Assembly (NCBI RefSeq): GCF_947623445.1 | Contig: NC_135244.1 | Coordinates: 15,748,860-15,812,859 of the forward strand | From: Clavelina lepadiformis | Lineage: Eukaryota; Chordata; Ascidiacea; Aplousobranchia; Clavelinidae | Length of the DNA: 64,000 nt | Reading direction: 5' to 3' | In this document: piece by piece, positions 2,865 through 62,118 of the stretch | Layout: each line of letters begins with the position of its first letter | How positions within the stretch are numbered: the stretch's first letter is position 1 | Made by a program: the position numbers and the translations under genes | Notes under the pieces: generated by a model | Seen by the model: the letters and a program-made list of their open reading frames with translations, nothing else | Told to the model about the DNA's origin: nothing | Databases searched by the model: none

Positions 2865-5800
2865 ATGGATAAAAATTACAGTTTATCTTATATAAAACGT
2901 AATGTAATTAAAATCACTCTATTCATCATGATTCTCTGTTTGGCTTTGGAGTATTTTTTCATAATGGAAAAGACTTCTGGAACAATTCGAGTTGTTTTTC
3001 CCTCAGCTGCATCCAGCTCTAACATGTATCCTTCTAACAAAATAAAAGTAAACTGCTCTACATGGAGAAAGCCATTACGAAACGTATCGGCTTTATCATC
3101 ACAGATTATACTAGCTCCTGACAGATTCCTGTATCCTGGGTTAATCTGGGGACCAAACAATCAGATTGTTGGTTTATTTCAATCCATATATGTCGCTATT
3201 CGCCTCAACAGGTAAGTAATACTGCTGTTATAAGATAGTTAAGTGCCGTAAAAACTTGAACATAATTCAAATAGAGCGTTCCAGTACGTAAACCACACGT
3301 GCTCGTAGAGACGTAGACGATATTGAGATTGTGAAATAAGGAACCTGTTTGTGACATAAAGCAGGAAAGCTAAATTGTTTTCTTTCTGTAGAACTTTGGT
3401 TGTACCACGTTTCGGTACACAACACACAGAGGGCGAAATACAAAGCGTGCCAGATTATCAACGAATTGACGTAGATCATTTGTGTTCATTTGTATCTTGC
3501 ATATCAATTGAAGATTTCCATAAAAAGTGTCACGGATCAATGGATGTTGTGTTTCAGGTAAATGATTACATATTTATTTGAGGCGGCTTGTGTGCATGAA
3601 CGTAGCGTGGAAATTGCAACAAGTTAATAAACTGACGAAACTTCAAACGTGGAAAACTTGAAACTCTATTTCGCTTATTGCTGATACTTATTTTGCAAAA
3701 TTTGCACCCGAGGCGCAATTCGGCCAATTAAAGCAAACGTATCAAACTTTATTGCTGTTCTCCAACCGCATGTGGCCCTTATGGACATAAACTGCGGTAC
3801 GTGACGTCTATCTTCATATATTTATCAAAATTTACATTTAACAATATTTCAACAGTTGCGGACCAAATTTCATTTCATTTTGGGGGCCGTCAACACATTG
3901 CTTAATACAAAGTCCACATACGCTTTTACCAAATAAGTGGATTTGTTGTACCAGCCCCTTGTGTCAAGAGTATCTTTGCAAATCAAAACTACTGCAACGC
4001 AATAATTTAAAGTTCAATTTAGTTGCAGTTATCCAATAAAACAACAAAAGCATTTTAAATTGCTCATATAGGTTTTCCGAAAAATGCATTTTTTATTTAG
4101 GCGCATGTATGAGAAAATTGCAGTTTTTTCACTATTTTGCCATGTTGTAAAGTGAGGAAATGCAGTCTTTATAAAACCAGTTATACAATACAGTTATATA
4201 ATTCGCGACATATGTAACGAGCATGAAAATGTTTTGAAGAGTAGACCATGCTGTGCAAGTGCATACATGTAAAGAACGATCAAGCAAATGAGTCAAAACT
4301 TTAAATGCGCAACTTTCGAGGATTGCTGGTCTATAAACAGACTTGCTTCTGTACAAAGATTTTCAAAAAAAGATAATCACCAATGGGACCAAAAAGATTG
4401 GACTTTCTTAAACTTAAAATTGGCTGCAATTTGTACTAATTTTGATACTAAAGACAGCATGGCTTCGTCTATCATCATTTACTTCATCATGTGTCTTATT
4501 GCGTAAAAATGAAGTGTTCTTTAAACTTACGGACAAGTTATTGAAAAACCACAAAGTCATTAACTATTAATGAACGCGTTGTATGCACAAACAATCTTAA
4601 TTTGTTCGGACACATGTTAATTATGGTGGTGTAAAGTAACAATAGATATAAAACAGGCTAAAACGGTTCTATCCGTTATCAATAATATAATCGTATCGAA
4701 AATGTAATTTTTGCTTAATTTTCTCAAATTTGAATCCGAAAATGTTTATTTTGGACAAAAGTTTAAAATTAGCCCTTTATGGATGATACTTCCTTTAGTT
4801 CGAAAACTTTAATTTCTTTTCAAATTGCTTGGTAAAGTTTTATTTGATGGAGGAAGTTAATTTTGCTAACTTGATTTGTATGGCAAAACTTGACTATAAT
4901 GGAGTTATTTATATATTTATATTTCTATATTTCGTATATGTTTCAGGCAATGTTATCCAAAATGCGTGACGTAGAAAAGTTCCAGAGAGACACACAAATG
5001 CATATTATTATGAACGAAGAATACAAATTGTCCGATTATTTTGTTGGAAACAGTCTGCAATCATCAGAGAAACCTACAAACAAAGCAAATATACCGTTCT
5101 ATCCCTGTTGCAATAACAAGGCCTCTGTCAATTGGTTATCTTCAAATCAACAAGTAATTAGAAGTACTTTCAATACCACGGCATCATGTGCTTTGTTTGC
5201 AAGTGCTTATCAGCCTTTGATGTTAAAGTCAAAGGGCCAGATTGCCATACCATTGGATAAAAACTATACAAAAGTTCGACAAATCAGAGATGATACACTT
5301 TACATGGCCATCGTCGATTCTGTACGGCGACCGAAATGTATCACACAACTTGCAGACGCATATATTGATGCTAACATAGGAACTGATGAGTTTGTCGCAG
5401 TACATTGGAGATACGACAAAAATGATTGGCTTCGAGTGTTCCGTGGTCTAAAAAGATACGAGCTTTGTGAGGTCATCACCAACATCACGTCGGAAGACGT
5501 AGCGCGAGCAATTATCAATAATCTACCATTGCTACATGACAAGAAGGAAATACACTCACACAATATAAGCGCTGCTGTGTCGGTCTATATTGCCACCCCA
5601 CCAAGTTTAAAAGAATTCAAATTGGAAATCTTTGATCATTTAGAAAAACTTGATCGTCGAATTAAAAAAGTTCCTCTTGACCTTGACGTCTATCTAAGTA
5701 AAAGTGTGTTTAATAAATGCTGGAACAGCACTGGATGGGTAAGCCTACTTGATATACTATCTCTTACCGAGATGGAAATAATGAGAAAGAGTAAATATTT

Positions 5801-5945
5801 CTTCTATTCTCATCTTTCTACTTGGTCAGACAACATTCGACCGTTAAGATGGAAAAGATCAGAAGGGAAAATACAAAGATTATTTGAGGCTTCAATACTT
5901 GACTTATCCAAAACTGTAATGAAAAATAGAATCAAGAGAAATTGA
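2865..5945 (+). CDS. O-fucosyltransferase-like type II membrane protein, copy A
   Basis: Three exons: 2865-3211, 3392-3557 and 4947-5945 (GT-AG introns, phases 2 and 0), 503 residues plus stop. I chose the ATG at 2865 over the in-frame ATG at 2847 because its context is gccATGG. Residues about 14-34 form a hydrophobic signal anchor. Exons 1 and 2 join as GPNNQ (about residue 96) ... LNR/TLVVPRF, matching the N-terminal nucleotide-sugar-binding region of the O-FucT family. VHWRYDKNDW (about 323) and a C-terminal STWSDNIRPLRW match later conserved blocks. The expected role is transfer of fucose from GDP-fucose to secretory-pathway proteins in the ER or Golgi; acceptors are unknown. The family call rests on motif recall, not a search. 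Confidence 0.72.
3558..4946 (+). other. Intron 2 of gene A; no other gene seen
   Basis: This is the 1.4-kb interval between splice donor CAG/GTAAAT and acceptor TTTCAG. Short open frames on both strands show no family motif and no splice logic of their own. Nothing else is supported. Confidence 0.7.
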
Positions 5946-15100: not shown

Positions 15101-16086
15101 CTATGGAAACGCGCTTATCAGATATAACACGCTTCGAAAATGATGCAGGAATGAATGTCTCCAGAGTGGAAGAAAATGATTTGCTTCATCCTGGTGCAAT
15201 TAATTTGCAGTTATCTCAAAACGGGAAAAAATCAAACATACCAGCTTTTCCCAGTACAAGTTACAAAATGACACATGGTCCCTGGCTCTCGTCAAGTGAA
15301 AAGTCGATTCGAGAGGCTTATAACTCAACAGTACCTTGTGCTTTGTTGGCAAAAGCATTCCATCCGCTTTCCTTGGAAGTGAAAGATAATATCGCTGTTC
15401 CATTGCATACCAAAGAATATGAAATCAAAGAAATCAAGAACAACGTCCTTTATTCAGCCATCGTTCATTCTGTTCGACGTCCTAAATGCGTCACTGAAGC
15501 GGCGGAAGCATACATCGACGCCAACATAGGTACTGATGAGTTTGTTACAATACATTGGAGATACGATAACAATGACTGGTTAAGAGTTTTTAGCAGATTC
15601 GCAACGTGTCAAGCGTGCAAATTTCTGAAAAATATCAGTGCAGAAGATGTTGCACAAGCAGTTATTAACAATTTGCCTTTGTTACGTGGCAACAATGACA
15701 CACAGCCTGTAAACACTGTTTCAGTCTATATTGCTACACCGCCAAGTTTAAAAGAATTCAAGTTGAAAATCTTGAGTCATTTAAAAACACTTGATTTTCG
15801 CATGGAAAGAGTACCTCTCGATCTTAAAGTCTATCTAACGGAAAAAGGATTTGAGAATTGCTGGAAAAATAGCAATTGGGTCAGTCCCAGTGAAATACTT
15901 TCTCTCGTTGAAATGGAAATTATCAGAAGAAGTAACTACTTCTTTTATTCTATTTTGTCGACTTGGTCAGGGAACATTCGACCTTTAAGATGGAAACGGT
16001 CAGATGGAAAAATAAAAAAAATGTTTGAAGCTTCAATACTTGACTTGGCTAAATCTGAAATGACAAAGAGAATGAATAGTAATTAA
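12130..16086 (+). pseudogene. O-fucosyltransferase-like gene, copy B, with an in-frame stop
   Basis: Exons 12130-12599, 14787-14952 and 15100-16086, with clean GT-AG sites and the same phases (2, 0) as copies A and C. A TAG at 12565-12567 falls in exon 1 just after GPNNQIYGL, where C has TGG and A has TTT. No other stop or frameshift is visible; with that codon read through, the frame runs 540 residues. N-terminal residues 7-27 are a signal anchor, and the last exon keeps IHWRYDNNDW and STWSGNIRPLRW. A possible 3' splice acceptor of a 5' UTR intron (T-rich tract then ACAG) lies at about 12055-12073. AATAAA-like signals follow the stop near 16110. Either a very young pseudogene, a polymorphic null, or an assembly error. 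Confidence 0.75.
12600..14786 (+). other. Intron 1 of gene B; no other gene seen
   Basis: 2.2 kb between donor AACAG/GTAACG and acceptor TTTTCCAG. The corresponding introns in A and C are only 180 and 348 bp, so this intron has grown by about 2 kb. I could not match its content to any other repeat in the window, nor see terminal repeats that would explain the growth. Confidence 0.6.
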
Positions 16087-24925: not shown

Positions 24926-27900
24926 ATGAAAGCTTGGGGTTTACCCGTCAAAGGATACTGGACGAAATTACGCACAATAAATATTGCTTTATTTTTGGGA
25001 ATATTCTTTTTCATGTTTATTTTTTTGTGCATTTTAAATGCAATTACGGAAACAAATTACGTTTTCCTTTATTCTGGAAACTATTTTGCAATTCAACCTT
25101 TTCTAAATCCGAAAGATACAATCCAAAACAAAACGATCGCCTCACCAAAACTCAAAGAAGTAGATGAAGAAGTATTTCCAGGAAGAACGGATGAAACAAC
25201 ACATTTTCTCATAAATTATACGAAAACCATCTCCCTAAAAGTTTCCGATAACGCAAGAAGCAATATCTTTGCTGGATTAAGGTCAACTAAAGTTACTTCC
25301 AACAGAAAAATAAGGAGGAAATGTTTGTTATGGGAGCAACCGTTGTATCAAGTATCAAACTTACCTACGCAGATTAAGTTAAATGCTGAAAAATTTCTTT
25401 ATCCCGGATTAATTTGGGGACCAAATAATCAGATTGTAGGTTTCTGGCAATCTATTTATGTCGCCATTCGTCTGAACAGGTAAATATATTTTTCTATACT
25501 TTCTGCAAGTATAGAATAAACAACACGTGGTCAGCATGTTATTTTAAAGTTAGATGGAAACATGTAAAAGAACAGCTGGTATCTTCAAATAATGTGATTA
25601 GCTGAAGGTGGAGATGCGAATATTTTCAGTTTTTTAAAGCAAAACCATAAAAAACAGTGACGTTTAAAAGACTAAAAGTATGTTTTTGTATGCACAAAGT
25701 ACAGCAAATCTATGATTAATGAAAGGCATTTGTAAACGAAAAACTGAAGTGAAATTCAAGTAAAATTCTAACCCTATAAAGTGTGATTAAACATTCTGAC
25801 GTAAGATTTACTGTTCTTGTTTTCAAGGACTTTAGTTGTACCAAGATTTTTTACACACTACACGACGGACAAAAAGGAAAGTGCAATACCAGCATATCAG
25901 AGAATTGACGTAAATCGCCTGTGTTCATTCATATCTTGCATTACAATTGAGAAATTCCATAAAGCGTGTAATGGATCCATGAATGTCGTTTTACAGGTTA
26001 GTTTAGTGATAGGTATGTTTCTTTTGCCTATTTTTTTTGCAATTTTTAGTGTAAAGAGTCCAAGGTATAATCGTATAGCTTATTATGCTCTTCTCAAATA
26101 ATACCAGACATATAAAGTCGACTTGCCGGAAACTTTGCATAGTTAAAAATACTTTACGATCATATTAATACTTCACTGCAAATGTGTTGGCCACAGTTGT
26201 CATGATGCGCTGCCTGCATATATAGTTAAACTATAGTAATTCGTCAATCAATATATAAAAGGAGTTAAAAATAATCGAGATAATGATTAAACGTCTCCTT
26301 CTTGTGAGTATGGTACTACTATACCATGCAGTACAACGTTTAGGTAACTTTTTAAGCCTGATCCATAACAACATTCACATTAGTATTAGGATTGTTCACA
26401 TTAGTGGGATTCAGCCGGTTCTTGGAATTTTAATGACCTCCGCGAACCTGTTGTTAACAAGCGTATGTATAGGCCTATGTGTACGTCGGCCCCGGACTAA
26501 TATGGCATGCTGCTAGTAAGAGAACCGGATGTTAAAATAATTGAATCCCACCACTGCATGGTTGTTCATATTTAGATCGTGTTTGAAAAGTTCAAGTTAA
26601 ATTAACTAATCGCATTCTGAATCTTCCGAACATTTTCTTATCACATTTTCTTTTTTTACAACATTTTCTTATCACCTTGCGTTTTTGCGTTCATCCTATA
26701 GTGTATAAAAAAATTGTCAGTATATTATTATGAAAGCAGTAAATTGGGCTTCAGAACTGTACATTTGTAATCAACAAAATCCAATATATACTGACTGTAA
26801 AGTGTATAATTCTATTTTATTTTATTTTTTTGAAGTACGGTATAACCAAGTATGACAGATGATTTTAAAAGTTTTTTTTTAGTGAAAACTTTGGGGCTCA
26901 TGAGCGGGGTCAGATAATCACAATTTTCAAACAGTTTTTTTGCCATTTTAGTTTTGGTTGATATGGAATGAGATTATTTAACTTGAACTTTTTAAACATA
27001 ACCAATTAAATATGAACAACCCTAATGTATATATACGATAAAATTAATTTGAAATAACTTTAGTGAAAACAATTCAAGAGGTGCGTATTCAGTTCCCGAT
27101 ATTTGTAGACCTCTTTTGCCCACCAAGCCAGACACTGAAGCACATATTATATTAGTGGCCGAACACGTAAAAGTGCATGCATGTGAAGCTCGTGAAGATT
27201 TCATATAGCAAGATCTTCTTTTGTTTAGTCCTGCCTGGCTTCAACATATAGCTTAATTACGTTTTATTGCCTCCGTGTAGGCGATAAGTTATATGAAATT
27301 GCATAAACGTGGGTGACGATTTAACGTGGGCCTATACGTGTGATAAATAATTATTTGGTACAACCTGTTAATAGCAAAGGTTGACCCCTTCGCTTATAGC
27401 TCATAGATGCAGCTTAATTGATTGCGTAAATGCGGTTTTATGTGTGTACTTGTGGTAGCAAAGAAGCCTGATAATGTACTTATATAATGTATAGGCCATG
27501 ACGTCAACAACAGCTGATATCCGGAGATTTGAAAAGCACACACAGATGAATATCTTCAAAATCAAAGGAAAAAGTGTGTCGGGATTTTTCGGTGCAACCA
27601 AGCTGAGGTTATCAGGAAAAGAAAACGCGATAGCCAATGTACCGGCCTTTCCAAGTGAAAATTACAAACTAACATATGAACCTTGGTTATTACCAAGTCA
27701 AGATGCCATCAGAGCGGCTTATAACACCACAGCACCTTGTGCTCTATATGCAAATCCATTTTACACAATATCGTTGAAATTAAAGGACAAAATTGCTTTT
27801 CCATTGAATATCATTGGTTCCAGAATTGAAGAAATCAAGGATAATGCCATTTTTTCAGCTATCGTTGATTCTGTCCGACGTCCTAAATGTATCACTGAAG

Positions 27901-28481
27901 CAGCAGAAGCATACATTGATGCTAATATAGGTACTGATGAGTTTGTCACGGTACATTGGAGGTATAATAAGGAGGATTGGCTCCGCACATGTCATTTGGA
28001 AAAGAAACGTAACACCTGTGAAATCCTAAAAAACATTACCGCAGAAGACATCGCTAATGCAATTGTTAACAATCTGCCTTTGATGAAAAACTCGAATCGT
28101 TCTAAGACCATATTCGTTTATATCGCCACGCCTCCGACTTTGAATGGATTTAAGTTGGAAATTCTAAATCATTTGGAAAACATTACCCGGCAGATTGTAA
28201 GGAGAGTGCCAACAGATCTCAACTCTTATTTAAATGAGAGTGGAGTTGAAAAATGTTGGAAAGATACACATTGGGTAAGTTCAAGCGAAATACTTTCGCT
28301 TGCTGAAATGGAAATCATGAGGAACAGTAACTACTTTTTCCATTCGGTTGGCTCGACTTGGTCGAGTAACATTCGACCGTTACGATGGAAGTGGACAGAT
28401 GGGAAAATAGAAAGAAAGTTTGAAGCTTCAATTTTGGGCTTAGCTAAAACTATAATGACGAAGAGAATCAATGGCATTTGA
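24926..28481 (+). CDS. O-fucosyltransferase-like type II membrane protein, copy C
   Basis: Exons 24926-25479, 25828-25996 and 27495-28481, phases 2 and 0, giving 569 residues plus stop. The chosen ATG starts MKAWGLPVKG just ahead of a hydrophobic anchor at residues about 18-38; an upstream in-frame ATG at 24854 gives a cysteine-rich leader with no counterpart in A or B. A long, poorly conserved stem follows, then CLWEQPLYQVSNLP, GPNNQIVGFWQS, the exon junction NR/TLVVPRF, and in exon 3 VHWRYNKEDW and STWSSNIRPLRW. Exon 2 is one codon longer than in A and B (KKESAIPAYQ). It is the cleanest copy and the best reference for the family. Predicted Golgi/ER fucosyltransferase with unknown acceptor. 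Confidence 0.74.
26402..26556. mobile_element. Short hAT-type element in intron 2 of gene C
   Basis: Starts (T)AGTGGGATTCAGCCGG and ends TTGAATCCCACCACTG, the same termini as the 549-bp element at 52736-53284, and shares internal stretches such as 'ggcctatgtgta' and 'atggcatgctgctagt'. About 155 bp, so internally deleted relative to that copy. I could not find a convincing target duplication. Confidence 0.75.
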
Positions 28482-37507: not shown

Positions 37508-39348
37508 CACTGGTCTACAAAAACAAAAAAAAATTTTGTTGCATGAACTTTGATGATTGATTTAGGCTAAGTTTTGGTTGCTGAATCCAATTCTGAGCTC
37601 AGAATTGCTCTATCACGTCAGGTTTTTTCGCTGCGCATTTTCCCCAATTTCATAAATTGATCAAATTTTGACTTTCGTTAGTGACGGTACGGTGAGCGTA
37701 TAACAGCAACAAATCAAATATTGTTATTGAAATCACCTATGATGAAACCTCGGCTGGAAGTTTTGTTGTAGCACAGAATGACAGAGTTTTCAGTAAACTT
37801 TAATCTAGTGGTTCTCAATCTTTTTTCAATCACGGACCTCTTTTCGAATTTCGAAAATATATGTGGACGCATTCATTTTTTTTTCGTATCTCATTACTTA
37901 GTTACCATCTTTATACATCGCGCTTGGTTTATACATCACGTTTGGTAGCTCATTACTGAGTTACCGTCTTTATCTGTATACATCTGCCCTGGAGACTTAA
38001 AAGGCCAATGCTTTTTGTGACAGCACCCTGCTCTTTAGTAAAACGTAAACATTGTCAACAATAAACATAACATTGTTTGTATAATGTAAAAGAAAAGAGT
38101 TCAAAACGAAGCCTGAAGTGCGTGTTACTTCACAATGGAAATAAATATGCATCGATTCCAGTAGGACATTCTGTGACACTCAAAGAGACGTATGAAAACA
38201 TTAAGGATGTGCTGGAAACACTGAAGTACAGTGATCATGGCTGGGCATTATGTGTAGACATAACAATAATGAACCTTCTGTTAGGACAGCAAGGTGGTTA
38301 CACCAAAAACCCTTGTTTTCTCTGCTACTGGGATAGCAGAGCCATAGATGAGCATTGGATAAAAGATAAGTAGCCAGAAAGGAGCAGTTTAACACCTGGA
38401 GAGAAAAATATCATTCATAACCCGTTAGTAGATACCAAGAAGATCATCCTGCTGCAACTTCCCACCAATCTTGGGGCAATGAAATGGTATGCTAAGGTTC
38501 TTGATCACAATGCTTTAGAGTTTAGGTTCTTGATCACAATGGAGATTGCTTTAAGTACATCTGCTAAGCCTTCCCAAGTCTCAGTGAAGAAAAGAAAGAA
38601 AAAGGCTGTAGTTTTTAGTGGCCCACAAATAAGGAAGCTGCTCAGAGATCCAAACTTTGCAGCATCAATAAACAGAGTTGAAGCAAGGGCTTGGAATTCT
38701 TTTTCTTTAGTTGTTAATAACTCCTTTGGCAACAGAAAGGCAGATAACTATCGAGACCTCTTAAAAGAAATGTTATTCAGCATGCAAGAGATGAAATGCA
38801 ATATGAGCATAAAGCTACATTTTCTGAAAAATCATTTAGATTACTTTCCCGAAAACCTTTGGGACGTCAGTGAAGAACAAGGTGAGCGCTTTAACCAAGA
38901 CATTAGAGTTATATGGAAGAGCGCTACCAAGGCCGATGGGACTGCCAGATGATGGCAGATTACTGCTGGAAATTGAAGAGAGAAAATTACACCACTACCC
39001 ATAAACGAAAGCCATTAAAACGAAAATTTTCGAGGTCTTAAAGATTGTGGCAGTTTTGTATCATTACATTGATTGTTCAACGGCTAGTTTCTAGTGATGT
39101 TTTTTAAATGATTTCGAGGCTTTGTGTTCGTGTTTTGCATGATTAAGCGTTCCAGCAGTTTTGATTAAAACAACCTCTACATTTCAAAGCGGTTTCTGAT
39201 TTGCGGTATTATTTATATTGATCATATATATTATTTCAAAAACGTGATGTGATAGAAAAAAAATAATGCCAGATTCGGATTCAGCGCCCCAAAATTAGGT
39301 AAAAAAGACCCCAACACAGTCTGCCGCAAAAATCGTGTTGACCAGTGT
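37508..39348 (+). mobile_element. CACTGG-terminated DNA transposon, copy 1 (decayed)
   Basis: Starts CACTGGTCTACA and ends TGTTGACCAGTG; TTA flanks both sides (37505-37507, 39349-39351). Subterminal 'GCTGAATCC' recurs in inverted orientation near both ends and in copy 2. The + strand encodes a degraded relative of the copy 2 protein: KCVLLHNGNKYASIPVGHS, a TAG at 38371-38373 where copy 2 has TGG, GPQIRKLL, SEEQGERFNQDI, then a frameshift near 38912 after which MEERYQGRWDCQMMADYC resumes. Its N-terminal part is missing. A hAT-like terminus (TAGTGGTTCTCAAT, near 37806) suggests a nested fragment. CACT termini with 3-bp duplications fit EnSpm/CACTA elements, but the superfamily is not proven. 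Confidence 0.8.
38077..39041 (+). pseudogene. Transposon protein relic in copy 1
   Basis: Reading frame equivalent to the 57345-58355 protein of copy 2. It has one internal stop (38371-38373) and one frameshift (about 38912); downstream of the shift the frame runs to TAA at about 39039-39041. The region 38430-38620 is poorly conserved, suggesting local rearrangement. Not functional. Confidence 0.8.
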
Positions 39349-55237: not shown

Positions 55238-56429
55238 TTATAATTGTCTGCGAGCAATTTGCAAAGCCATCTCACTTCTTTGCACATCCTCTCTTTTTTC
55301 CGCCTCACTGTCGTAGTCTTCTGCTCGCTTCTTCGCCACAATGGCTTGGGAGAAATATTTTGCTGCCTCATTTGGTCTATCCTTCAGCAAATAAGTATGG
55401 CCGAGATTGTTTAGAGCACCGCCGTAAATCTGCTTCTTCTCCGCATCTTTTCCATGCCCGTCTTGCATGATCGAAATGGATTCCTTCAACGAGGCTTCAC
55501 GCCCGCTAAGGTCACCGGCAAGGAACTGGCATTGCTCAATGTGGTGAAAGCAAACAGTTCGAATAAAACTTAGACTTTTTTTGTCGATGCCCTTCAAGCC
55601 AGCGATTTGATCATTTATCTTCCGCAACACGGGTATCATATGGTCTCTGATCAATTGCTTTGAAGTCTGCTGATTTTCTATCAGGTCGGTCACTGCAGTT
55701 TTAATGCTCTGACTGCACCTGTGAAGAATGTTCACACTGTCGCCAGGGTTGCTTTCATTTTTGCAGTAAACAGCAGCGATTTGAAAGAAGAGGATAGCGT
55801 CAAAATTTTTCTTCTTCTTCATCAACTCTGCCGCAAAATGTTCTGTGTCCGCGGCAGAAGTATCAAGAAGTTTTTTCATCAATGAGATGATTTCATCACG
55901 GATTTTGGCGGCTTTGTCAGGGCGTCCGGTTTGCATCAATGAAACGTAATACTTTACAAGAACAGGTAAGAAGTTGAGTTGGTCCCCTATCTTGTATTGC
56001 TTCTTAACCAGCCCATAGGCTTCCTCATATTTGCCTTCCTTTATATATGTTGCACTCGTTGCTAAAACGTAAAGCTTGAAAGCAAACTACATTGGACATT
56101 CACTAATTAGAATATTATGGTTACCACAGTGGCCTGAATTATAGACAGCTTATCAACCCAACGATCTATTGTGAAAAGCTGATTGATGTGAAGTTCAATC
56201 ATATAGTACGGTTTAAAGTTTTAAAGTACTTTTGTTTCCTTTCAAGGAGCGCAAATTTTGTTAAATTATATCGCTTGCTTTGCAAGATTACTTGCGAACT
56301 AGTATGCACTGAACTTTGTTAAATGAACGTACTTAGCAAACACTCTTATTGTTTATAGTACATTAATTCGCGTTTTACTTACCATCCAAGTGAAACAACT
56401 GCTCGATTGATATTGAGGACTGATTATTA

Positions 56430-58849
56430 CACTGGCCAACAAAAAAACATTTTTTTTTGAGTGCCAAAGATATTTTGATGGTTTCTGGGTAATTTTGGGC
56501 TGCTGAGTCCGAAAATAACATTCGTTTCTTTGAATTGGCTCTAGTTTTTGAGATATCAATGTTTTTTATTTTTGACGAGAGAAAAATCGTTAACTTTAGT
56601 ATCTGCCAATTGTGAACACAAGCATCAGTAAAATGCATATTGGAAATGTCTCTTAGGCAGTATGCATTACTTATTTTGGACCAGATACTCCACTATGTCT
56701 ATTTGTTATTGTAGCATCCCATTACTTCAGAAACAAGGCATTGAAAACACTCCATTTTCGGCATCATTCTGATAAGCTACAGTTTCTTTGTATTGTTCAC
56801 CACATGTACAGTGTAGAGTACTCCCTTCAGTTATCACATCATATCAATATCTCATTTTATAGCTATATTGTTGTAGACTAAAGATGCTGTAATCAGAATT
56901 TAATAGTTCTGTAGCCAGAGAAAGGAATACCACGAGTCAAGTTCAAGCTATTGCTCACATAAGTAAGTTTGGAAAACGTGGAGGTTTTTTGTAATTCAAG
57001 TGAGAATTGAGTTCATTAGTGGAAGTTTGACAATATGCTTAGGCCTTGTCACTGGGAGGATGCATTTTCCTGTGACTGAATTGACAACCTGTCACATTTT
57101 CGTTCAGTATATATATGCTCTGCAAGTGAGAGCAGTGGAAGTGTGTTCGAAAGCAGTCCATTCATTCCAGAGCCATTCAAGCAGGAGGAGCTGAGCGATC
57201 TTATCAGGGATCTCAACTTATCCAAAGAAGCAGCAGAAATTTTGGCATCCTGACTCAAAGACAAAAACTGCCTTGGAACCGGAGCTTCAATAACATTCTA
57301 CCGTACAAGAGAGAAAGAATTACTTCCGTATTTTAGCCAACAAGATGACCTTGTTTACTGCAAAGTGCAAAGACATCGAAGGGCTTCTGCTGAAAATGGG
57401 AGTGCCACAATATAGACCTCAAGAGTGGCGCTTATTCATAGACAGTTCGAAAAGGAGTTTGAAATGTGTATTGCTACATAATGGTAACAGATATGCATCT
57501 CTCCCAATTGGCCACTCAACAAAACTAAAAGAAGAGTACAACAACATTAAAACGGTATTACAGAAACTGGATTATGACTCTCACCAATGGTTAATCTGTG
57601 TAGACTTGAAGATGGTAAATTTTTTGCTTGGCCAGCAAAGCGGATATACAAAATACCCATGTTTTATCTGCTTGTGGGATAGCCGAGCGCGCACTGATCA
57701 CTGGGTGAAGAAAGGGTGGCCACTTAGAGATTCCATGAGAGTAGGTGAAGGTAACATCATAAATGAACCTTTAGTTGCTAGAGAGAAGATCATCATTCCA
57801 CCGCTGCACATAAAACTTGGTTTGATGAAGCAATTTGTGAAAGCCTTGCCTGCAACTGGGGATTGCTTCAACTATATTTGCAGAACATTTCCTGCTTTGA
57901 CCATCGAAAAGCTTAAAGCAGGCATTTTTGATGGCCCTCAGATCCGCAAACTCATAAAGGATGTGTGTTTTGTGCAGTCCATGACAGACACAGAGTCTGC
58001 TGCTTGGCAATCGTTTGTTTTAGTCACACAGAACTTTCTTGGTAACCGAAAAGCTGAAAATTCCCAAGAATTGGTGGAAGATATGCTTTCCAAGTTGAAA
58101 GATTTAGGTGTGAAGATCAGTATCAAGGTTCACTATCTCTTCAGCCACTTAGATCGTTTTCCTGCAAACCTTGGTGATCTAAGTGAAGAGCAGGGAGAAA
58201 GGTTCCACCAGGACATTAAGGTCATAGAAGAGAGGTATCAGGGCAGGTGGGATGCCCATATGATGGCCGACTACTGTTGGAGTCTCCAACGTGACTGCTT
58301 GGCTGCATCACATTCCAGAAAGTCGTACAAAAGAAAATCTACAAGCATCAACTAATTTTTTTGTATTACAGTACCGATATATGATTGATTAGCGTGCTTT
58401 GACAGCTTACTAAATGTACTTTGAGCGTTACTAAAAGTAGTGTTTGTGCTTTGACGTCGCCTGTTTTTGCGTTACAAAAATCTGTTGTTTGCTGCTAACA
58501 TCGCCTAAGTTTTATAATTTTTGCTTGATTTTCACATGAAACATGATTCGCGTAAAGAAGGCTCTCTGTGTTAACGATTGCGTCTTTAACAATATCGCAT
58601 CAGAAATAGATGAATACTGTATGCACATGATAGAAAAGACAGATGTAGACTCATCGAAGTTGTAGTATAAAGAGAATTTTACCTATGTCAAAATTTGCGT
58701 ATTTTTAGCACTTTTTGAAACAAAAACATGGAATATCTCAAAAACTAGAGCCAATTCGGAAAAACTAATGCCATTTTTGGATTCAGCGACATAAAAATAC
58801 CCTAAAACCGTTGAAACTTTCTTGGCACCAAAATGTGTGTTGACCAGTG
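56430..58849 (+). mobile_element. CACTGG-terminated DNA transposon, copy 2, inside G4 exon 4
   Basis: Starts CACTGGCCAACA and ends TGTTGACCAGTG, flanked by TTA on both sides (56427-56429, 58850-58852). Inverted similarity extends well inside: 'gctgagtccg' and 'ttggctctagtttttgagat' near the left are inverted near the right. It encodes the 57345-58355 protein on the + strand, antisense to G4. Upstream of that frame, degraded N-terminal sequence is visible: LSDLIRDLNLSKEAAEILAS, then TGA at 57251-57253, then YRTREKELLPYFSQQDDLVY and a frameshift. CACT termini with 3-bp duplications suggest EnSpm/CACTA; this is an inference. Confidence 0.85.
57345..58355 (+). CDS. Transposon-encoded protein (N-terminally broken), family without a firm name
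   Basis: 336 codons. Blocks seen: FIDSSKRSLKCVLLHNGN (about residues 32-49), VNFLLGQQSGYTKYPCFICL followed by WDSRAR with a C-x-x-C pair (about 92-116), PPLHIKLGLMKQFVKAL, GPQIRKLI, FLGNRKAENSQELVEDML, SEEQGERFHQDI, ERYQGRWD and MMADYCWSLQRD. From memory this protein type recurs in many animal genomes, annotated as uncharacterised and usually inside repeats. Its presence within matching terminal repeats in two copies here supports it being the element's own protein, probably the transposase, but catalytic residues could not be assigned. The true start lies upstream of a stop and a frameshift. Confidence 0.7.
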   Translation: MTLFTAKCKDIEGLLLKMGVPQYRPQEWRLFIDSSKRSLKCVLLHNGNRYASLPIGHSTKLKEEYNNIKTVLQKLDYDSHQWLICVDLKMVNFLLGQQSGYTKYPCFICLWDSRARTDHWVKKGWPLRDSMRVGEGNIINEPLVAREKIIIPPLHIKLGLMKQFVKALPATGDCFNYICRTFPALTIEKLKAGIFDGPQIRKLIKDVCFVQSMTDTESAAWQSFVLVTQNFLGNRKAENSQELVEDMLSKLKDLGVKISIKVHYLFSHLDRFPANLGDLSEEQGERFHQDIKVIEERYQGRWDAHMMADYCWSLQRDCLAASHSRKSYKRKSTSIN

Positions 58850-59343
58850 TTATCTGTGCAACATTAAAATTAATTAAATGGCAAATTCTAGAGCTGCTAG
58901 GTAGTTATCTAAATTGAATCACATAGCTTACAGACCATTTGTTCGAGCTTGATTTTGCTGCGCTGAGTTTGTTTGATTTGATTCAAACATCCCCAATTGT
59001 TCTAAAAAATAGGTCACATTGAATAGGCCTACATGTATGTTACTGAAAGCCTTAAATTTTCTCTTTTAATTTGTCATAGACACTATCAAAACGCAAAACG
59101 TATAAGCCTATGATTTTGATACTCCTGTAGCCTATAGCTTGCTCGATATGTTTGTTAAACACCCGATCCAGGCAATTTACTTCAATAAAGCTATAATTAC
59201 TTACCCATTAATCGGCGAAGTGCCAAAGCGCTGAAAAAGAAAACAAATTCGATTTCAACATCAATTGGTTTATAAAGTTTTCTGATTTAAGTTTTTATTA
59301 ACTGCAACTTATCTGACCCGTTGGTGCCTGCATCGAAATTCAT

Positions 59344-60317: not shown

Positions 60318-60768
60318 GAACTTGCTTGCTCTGTTGGCTCTCCACCGCATAGGTAAGAATAACGCAAACCATGAGTACAAAAGTAATAAACCTTTGCAAA
60401 TGCTAACATCACATTTCTTTAAGTTTGGTTTTATGTTTTCAATTGTCGTTTTGCAATTTGAATTTGACAGCGCAAATGGTAGCGGAAGGTGATAATGACG
60501 ATGACAGCAATGGAGCTCGGATAAGCGAACTAGAAGATGAAAGTGAGTTTCTTTTGTAAAAACAGTGCAAAGAATTAGTAAGAGTAAGTATCTTCGCGTG
60601 GTGGGCACGAAAGTATCTTGTCTGTGTCTTTGCATATATGTGCAGTTAAATTTCTTTAGGAATAATTTTTTTTTTGCACGTGATTGAAATATAAAGTTGT
60701 TAAAGTCAGATCATTAAACTTTGTAGGCCGAGCTCAAACCACGCTGGAGCAGGCGCTGGAATTGGAAG
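60318..60768 (+). CDS. TPR-like family gene G5, exons 2-4 (partial)
   Basis: Three exons on the + strand: 60318-60352, 60471-60542 and 60727-60768, all with AG/GT borders and the family phases (2 to 1, 1-1, 1-1). Exon 2 reads NLLALLALHRI (G2: LLAMLALHHI), exon 3 AQMVAEGDNDDDSNGARISE (G2: AGRQAADGREGSSRITELTD), exon 4 RAQTTLEQALELE. These match the minus-strand genes in order, so this is an inverted family member. The start exon is unresolved and the 821-bp TPR exon was not found before the window end; a Harbinger remnant occupies the presumed intron. Either the gene continues past 64000 or it is a truncated pseudogene. Confidence 0.65.
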
Positions 60769-61266: not shown

Positions 61267-61503
61267 ATGGGAAGGAGAGCAAATTTTACAGTTACGGAAA
61301 AAAACATTTTTATTGACTTAATGAATAAGCCTAATTACATTAGTGTAATTGAATGCAAAAAAACTGATAGTAAATCTTTGGAATCCAAGTCCACTGCTTG
61401 GAAGGAACTCTGTGCAGAATTCATCTCCAGCAAAATCTCATCAGCCTCCATCTCCGAACAAAAAGCCATCAAGAAGATTGTTTTCAAATTTGTAGGAAAG
61501 TGA
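61267..61503 (+). pseudogene. Myb/SANT-like DNA-binding protein of Harbinger, C-terminally truncated
   Basis: Starting at MGRRANFTVTEKN, the frame follows the Myb/SANT-like pattern of Harbinger accessory proteins (ANFT..EK...L..L, ECKKTD, AWKELCAEF). After SSAS it runs into sequence antisense to the transposase and ends at 61503. The full protein normally continues with a K-rich helix and a linker, absent here. In intact elements this protein helps carry the transposase to the nucleus and to the DNA ends. Confidence 0.7.
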
Positions 61504-62118
61504 GCTGTTGTCAAAAATTCTGCAATCGTGTGTAGATCCAGGCCATCTACAGACTATATTAGTAAAGCACATATTTGCATCTGTGACTGCTTGAACATTG
61601 ATCGAGAAATAACCTTTGCGGTTGCGATAAAGTTCTCCATTGTCTCCACTTGGCCTTTTAATGGGAATATGACTGCAGTCAATTGCTCCTAGCACACCTG
61701 GAAACTGAGCAATATTTTTAAAATGAAACTTCACGTTGTTCAAATCCTGATTGCTTGGAAATCTTATGAACTGCTCGTGTCTGGTGGCAATTGCCCGTGT
61801 TACTCTATGAATAACCCGGCAAGCACTGGATTGGTCAATGCCGATTAAGTCACCATCTGTCCGCTGAAAATGTCCTGCGGCATAAAACCGTAAAGTAGTG
61901 ACAAGTTGAAGAATTGGTGGTATGCAGTGATTACGATTTGTGCCATGCTCTAAATCAAAGGAAATCATCCCCAAAAGTTGAAGAACTGAATCCTTTCTAA
62001 AGCGAAAACGTTCGCGAAATTGCTCTTCTGTAAAATTTTCAAATGGGTTTAGTCTGTCTTTGATGTTTCTTCTCGGTGGTGTCTCAATAAAATGCTCAAT
62101 AAATTCAATACAATCCAT
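61441..62118 (-). pseudogene. HARBI1-like DDE transposase, C-terminally truncated
   Basis: 225 residues from MDCIEFIEHF. Family blocks: ERFRFRKDSVLQLL, LRFYAAGHFQRTDGDLIGID, SACRVIHRV, then GVLGAIDCSHIPIKRP holding the first catalytic Asp and WPGSTHDCRIFDNS holding the second. The frame stops at FGDGG, where a normal protein continues GDSGYP and later supplies the third acidic residue. Without that residue it cannot be catalytic. About two thirds of the usual 340-350 residues remain. Confidence 0.85.

Follow-up and report, generated by a model that had tools for sequence, protein, structure and literature searches.

A transposon within exon 4 of G4

The window, a 64,000-nucleotide stretch of Clavelina lepadiformis DNA (15,748,860-15,812,859 of contig C5), contains G4, a five-exon minus-strand gene of a TPR-like family, and a 2,420-bp DNA transposon lies inside exon 4 of this gene. 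In the model obtained by joining the G4 flanks with one TAA, exon 1 (26 bp, with the ATG; 59318-59343), exon 2 (26 bp; 59205-59230) and exon 3 (66 bp; 58936-59001, with a GTCTGT donor after 58936) are followed by a symmetric, phase 1-1 exon 4 of 48 bp and by exon 5 (824 bp; 55238-56061), which carries the TPR-like helical domain. Read along the minus strand, the 82-nt intron 3 ends in the exon 4 acceptor TTGCACAG (58854-58861), which is followed by a single exon base (58853) and a TAA; beyond these come the element, another TAA and then what is left of exon 4, down to 56383, where a GTAAGT donor follows. The right copy of the TTA target site duplication occupies 58850-58852 and the left copy 56427-56429, the latter within the 47-bp remainder of exon 4 (56383-56429). 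The original prediction had placed the element at 56430-58849, flanked by TTA duplications and one base past the acceptor; both ends and both TTA copies were found there, and only base 58853 is cut off from its exon. Its further claim, that excision with one TTA copy restores a 48-bp phase 1-1 exon and a 990-bp frame, was reproduced, the frame having no internal stops. The insertion and its boundaries, the interruption of the exon and the open frame of the remaining gene can be read directly from the DNA.

Complete gene models were obtained for the sister genes G1 (999 bp), G2 (1,008 bp), G3 (978 bp) and G8 (1,035 bp), and G7 is also complete. The phases after exons 1-4 were 2,1,1,1 in all seven genes read (G1, G2, G3, G4, G6, G7 and G8), G6 being counted with its first four exons only and its last exon not used. 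Exon 4 is present in each of the six other cluster genes read, its length in the family varies from 48 to 81 bp, and its ends are alike, as in SVERLLGLE and SIEQLFHLD. The earlier view that G4 exon 4 fits four sister genes holds with respect to phase and to the similar exon ends, but the family comprises more than these four sisters. An exon 4 that ends elsewhere in the family had been named as evidence against the insertion model, and the family models gave an exon 4 with like ends and the same phases.

We compared G4 with G8, its closest sister. Over all aligned codons, silent sites were saturated (pS 0.857) and replacement sites were not (pN 0.306). In its final nine codons exon 4 shows seven synonymous and no nonsynonymous changes, as counted by eye from a codon list, and these codons look constrained. 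The first seven codons of the exon 4 alignment all encode different residues in G4 and G8, and exons 1-3 are weakly conserved (pN 0.567), suggesting that the N-terminal part of the G4 protein may be tolerant of change.

A structure model of the exon 5 part of G4, made from four sequences, is an all-helical array (pLDDT 90.9). Its fold is like that of the TPR domains of LGN/Pins and kinesin light chain (best E 3.2e-05), with which it shares about 11-16% identity, and some 14-3-3 chains appeared among the lower-ranked matches. In searches with TPR profiles at curated cut-offs, the G4 part 55241-55939 scored below the cut-offs, and the sister G3 scored above several of them. Because of the fold of the model, our guess is that the G4 product could be a peptide-binding adaptor.

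Other relatives of the family were noted. Plus-strand exons resembling exons 2-4 lie at 60318-60352, 60471-60542 and 60727-60768; a protein search found no last exon for this gene, and judged from these exons it is perhaps a broken copy of another family gene. Further clusters at C8:969000-992000 and C5:24183000-24193000 contain distant relatives of the TPR-like genes.

Identity, copies and age of the element

The element (56430-58849) has CACTGG...CCAGTG ends and imperfect inverted-repeat arms of 116 nt that are 73% complementary (56456-56571 and 58718-58833). A transposase-like ORF of 336 aa (57345-58355, plus strand) runs antisense to G4; its motifs PCFIC, PPLHIK and HYLFSH were matched by eye to the Chapaev3 motif names C(2)C, LH and H(4)H. 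Among the 20 near-complete copies described below, 19 have CAC...GTG ends, with one end base changed in the remaining copy (L007), and 18, that in G4 included, have an exact 3-bp TTA/TAA duplication between A and T, the other two (L003 and L008) having a 4-bp ATAA duplication. According to PMC4079192, Chapaev3 or Chapaev elements have CAC/GTG ends, duplicate TWA between A and T, and encode transposases with the motifs C(2)C, LH and H(4)H. Judged by its duplications, ends and motifs, the element fits a Chapaev3-like transposon of the CMC group. The ORF had no match in Pfam (E up to 0.01), in PDB sequences (E up to 1) or in NCBIfam (E up to 1), and a single-sequence structure model of it was too poor to use (pLDDT 35.5) and was discarded.

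Other putative mobile sequences in the window include a fragment at 38479-38952 (plus strand) of a second, diverged relative of the element's ORF, to which it is 46% identical, and an ORF at 61441-62118 (minus strand) with a DDE_Tnp_4 domain (E 1e-15), which we take to be Harbinger-like. Three long plus-strand ORFs (4890-5945, 15103-16086 and 27498-28481) are similar by eye; the one searched against Pfam (15103-16083) gave no match.

We searched the whole genome (209 Mb, 95 contigs) for the element and scored 40 of 338 candidates, so that the counts are lower bounds. At least 137 matching pieces were found, among them at least 19 near-complete copies elsewhere in the genome, 20 with the G4 copy. 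In this search the 19 others matched the G4 copy at 96-99%, and over aligned bases its identity to them is 97.7-99.4%. Twelve substitutions were flagged as private to the G4 copy, but three neighbouring ones represent a shifted A/T run and were set aside, leaving nine in the 2,342 columns in which 90% or more of the 19 others have the same base (about 0.4%). A 7-bp tandem duplication in its transposase region (57359-57372, plus strand) is likewise private to the G4 copy, being absent from all 19 other aligned copies. Since the closest copy is 99.4% identical and at least 19 near-complete copies exist elsewhere, the insertion in G4 looks recent. The other copies, the target duplications, the gene models of the family and the small number of changes private to the G4 copy all support the original prediction that an element jumped recently into a genuine coding exon, and from the last of these we infer that the insertion allele may still be polymorphic. 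Two DNA searches with the flanks, in this assembly of one haplotype, found no empty allele and no second copy: the 1,751-bp right flank had no match besides its own locus, and the 1,530-bp left flank matched, apart from its own locus, just two pieces of G8, the diverged sister. When the insertion sites of the 20 copies were joined, the open frames across them ranged from 13 to 121 codons, and one exonic copy was identified.

About eight of the other copies had no match to the stretch at about 56594-57116, although both of its sides were well matched. A gap of nearly equal length occurs there in L061 and L062, which could point to two subfamilies or to recombinants.

Splice signals and predicted transcripts

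Splice sites were scored with a matrix built from the sites of G1, G2, G3, G4 and G8 (20 donors and 20 acceptors), all of a single gene family; with each site left out in turn, the real acceptors scored 0.7 to 12.0 and the real donors 0.4 to 12.8. The native exon 4 acceptor of G4 obtained a fair score (7.7). If it is used, the frame is predicted to enter the element and to stop after 23 codons, giving a product of about 62 residues that lacks the TPR domain.

The left end of the element had been proposed as a new acceptor that would shift the frame. The GGCCAG at this edge is indeed out of frame, but it is weak (2.3, or -0.6 with another pseudocount), and it was rejected as a candidate; a better, in-frame candidate is CTCAG/CAGCCC, with its first exon base at 56502 (56502-56504, minus strand; score 8.1). 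Near the other end of the element, CACTG/GTCAAC is a candidate donor whose last exon base is 58845 (58843-58845, minus strand; score 6.1). The rescue routes through these two sites were found post hoc, by looking for rescues. Joining exon 3 to 56502 is predicted to create a 120-bp hybrid exon that is in frame and stop-free, uses the native donor and encodes 25 residues mostly from the element followed by NNQSSISIEQLFHLD. Use of donor 58845 with acceptor 56502 would instead remove the element as an intron and add 81 nt in frame, and splicing of a 9-nt mini-exon (58853-58845) directly to exon 5 is also predicted to keep the frame. The junction from 58936 to 56061, which skips exon 4, was among those listed in the original prediction; there its frame was unstated, and by our computation it is in frame, with a loss of 16 residues. 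Since the insertion could be bypassed in frame by several routes (the skip, the hybrid exon, the mini-exon and the element as an intron), this allele may still yield a TPR protein.

Effect on G4 and related systems

The explanation we favor, and hold to be quite probable, is that a Chapaev3-group transposon jumped recently into exon 4 of a TPR-like gene, leaving an allele that is most likely null or strongly weakened. In this scheme the element would have entered A-TAA-T of exon 4, antisense to the gene, and duplicated TTA, after which the native exon 4 could presumably no longer be made. Transcripts spliced at the native acceptor would run into the element, stop early and lose the TPR domain, and transcripts that skip the exon would be in frame but would be deprived of the peptide SIEQLFHLD, which is common to G4 and G8. 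The allele is judged most likely null or strongly weakened because of these three effects together: the loss of the native exon, the truncation by read-through and the loss of SIEQLFHLD on skipping.

Each of the alternatives leaves G4 with a working product or questions the insertion itself. Skipping of exon 4 could keep the gene working through a protein of 313 residues, from which nothing but the 16 exon 4 residues would be missing, and this is possible, if somewhat unlikely. The symmetry of the 48-bp exon, its phases being those of the six other genes read, would permit it, and exon 5, which holds the TPR-like domain, alone gives the confident model described above; the apparent conservation of the last nine exon 4 codons between G4 and G8 and the retention of the exon in six of six other genes read speak against it, however, and the short intron 3 with its fair acceptor favors use of the native site. 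That same native acceptor, being the closer one, must be passed over if the element supplies the acceptor at 56502, which would give a protein of 353 residues in all. Left-one-out scoring ranks the element site slightly above the native one (8.1 versus 7.7), and only 44 of 3,000 simulated elements contained an in-frame, stop-free acceptor as good, but the order is reversed when the native sites are left in the matrix and the other pseudocount is used (9.2 for the native acceptor, 7.0 for that of the element). Simulation of the last 420 bases alone gave an acceptor of 7.0 or more in 12 of 1,000 cases. Given these figures and the post hoc discovery of the site, we consider this route improbable. 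That the insertion is an assembly artefact or a misjoin is scarcely credible, since the element is flanked by an exact duplication of the target site that its family prefers and the assembly, according to PMC10884593, is a HiFi assembly (reads ERR10499356) with a QV of 67.4. The individual assembled is kaClaLepa1, for which an alternate haplotype is published as GCA_947623165.1, and the published RNA-seq (ERR10908613) was made from a different one, kaClaLepa9.

It is very doubtful that the element in its entirety is spliced as a new intron between donor 58845 and acceptor 56502, adding 27 codons. A donor and an acceptor together as good as these occurred in 4 of 3,000 simulated elements, and the title of Menssen et al. 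1990 (cited in PMC4219821) offers a precedent in En/Spm of maize; against this, a 9-nt exon would be required, the donor is below the median of real donors, and the pair was again found post hoc. The 73-nt exit tail of the G4 copy has no stop in any phase, nor do its 71-74-nt counterparts in the 19 other copies. Exactly 81 nt would be added by 16 of the 20 copies if a 3-bp duplication is assumed, and 14 of the 20 would be in frame with the duplication length of their own. The 20 copies are nearly identical, however, and amount to one observation, and a stop-free tail arose in 162 of 5,000 dinucleotide shuffles (5 of 5,000 single-base shuffles) and in 55 of 2,347 such windows on the same strand of the element. 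Among eight further loci (L056-L063), whose ends were read by eye, L056, L057 and L059 are diverged relatives: the donor GT is missing in L056 and L059, and the tail contains stops in L056 and L057. Because these three do not keep the full set of donor and open tail, selection for a splice exit in the element is not claimed. The broader form of the idea appears to us a long shot: in the antisense direction, this Chapaev3-like family would have a donor 5 nt inside one end and, 73 nt inside the other, an acceptor followed by an exit that is stop-free and frame-neutral, and copies that land in exons could then be removed as new introns, leaving a scar of 27 codons. If it were true, the G4 insertion would represent an early stage of intron gain, in a chordate.

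A recent jump into exon 4 with loss or strong weakening of the allele, the explanation preferred here, is an ordinary and known kind of mutation, apart from the splice-like signals that the element happens to carry and that might partly rescue the gene. The locus offers a clean, young exonic insertion accompanied by many near-identical genomic copies and by sister genes with an intact exon 4. Its added value is that gene loss, rescue by exon skipping and rescue by the sites of the element correspond to distinguishable transcripts, one of which would represent a young intron gain.

En/Spm is a CACTA element, and its membership of the CMC megafamily is common to it and the element in G4. Maize supplies close parallels: by its title, Menssen et al. 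1990 deals with splice sites at the termini of En/Spm in the A2 gene that generate a novel intron (cited in PMC4219821), and the title of Giroux 1994 concerns a Ds-made intron (cited in PMC3151243). In those cases, as may be so here, splice sites of a transposon are able to make an intron, but in G4 the sites are predicted ones and the host is an animal. According to PMC9860276, many introners resemble DNA transposons with target duplications, some add codons once spliced, and their families have median lengths of 30-654 nt with between 5 and more than 2,000 intronic copies; the G4 element, in contrast, is 2.4 kb long, with the single exonic copy noted above. A 50-bp Chapaev fragment inside an intron in stickleback is mentioned in PMC3151243, in passages that are silent on its splice sites. 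Among the CC-licensed titles and starts of abstracts covered, there was no report of the G4 element, of a tunicate Chapaev or of Chapaev splice sites. With the Chapaev3 group itself the element shares the TWA duplication, the end bases and the transposase motifs, and it differs in belonging to a sea-squirt family and in the private 7-bp duplication that the G4 copy carries in its transposase region.
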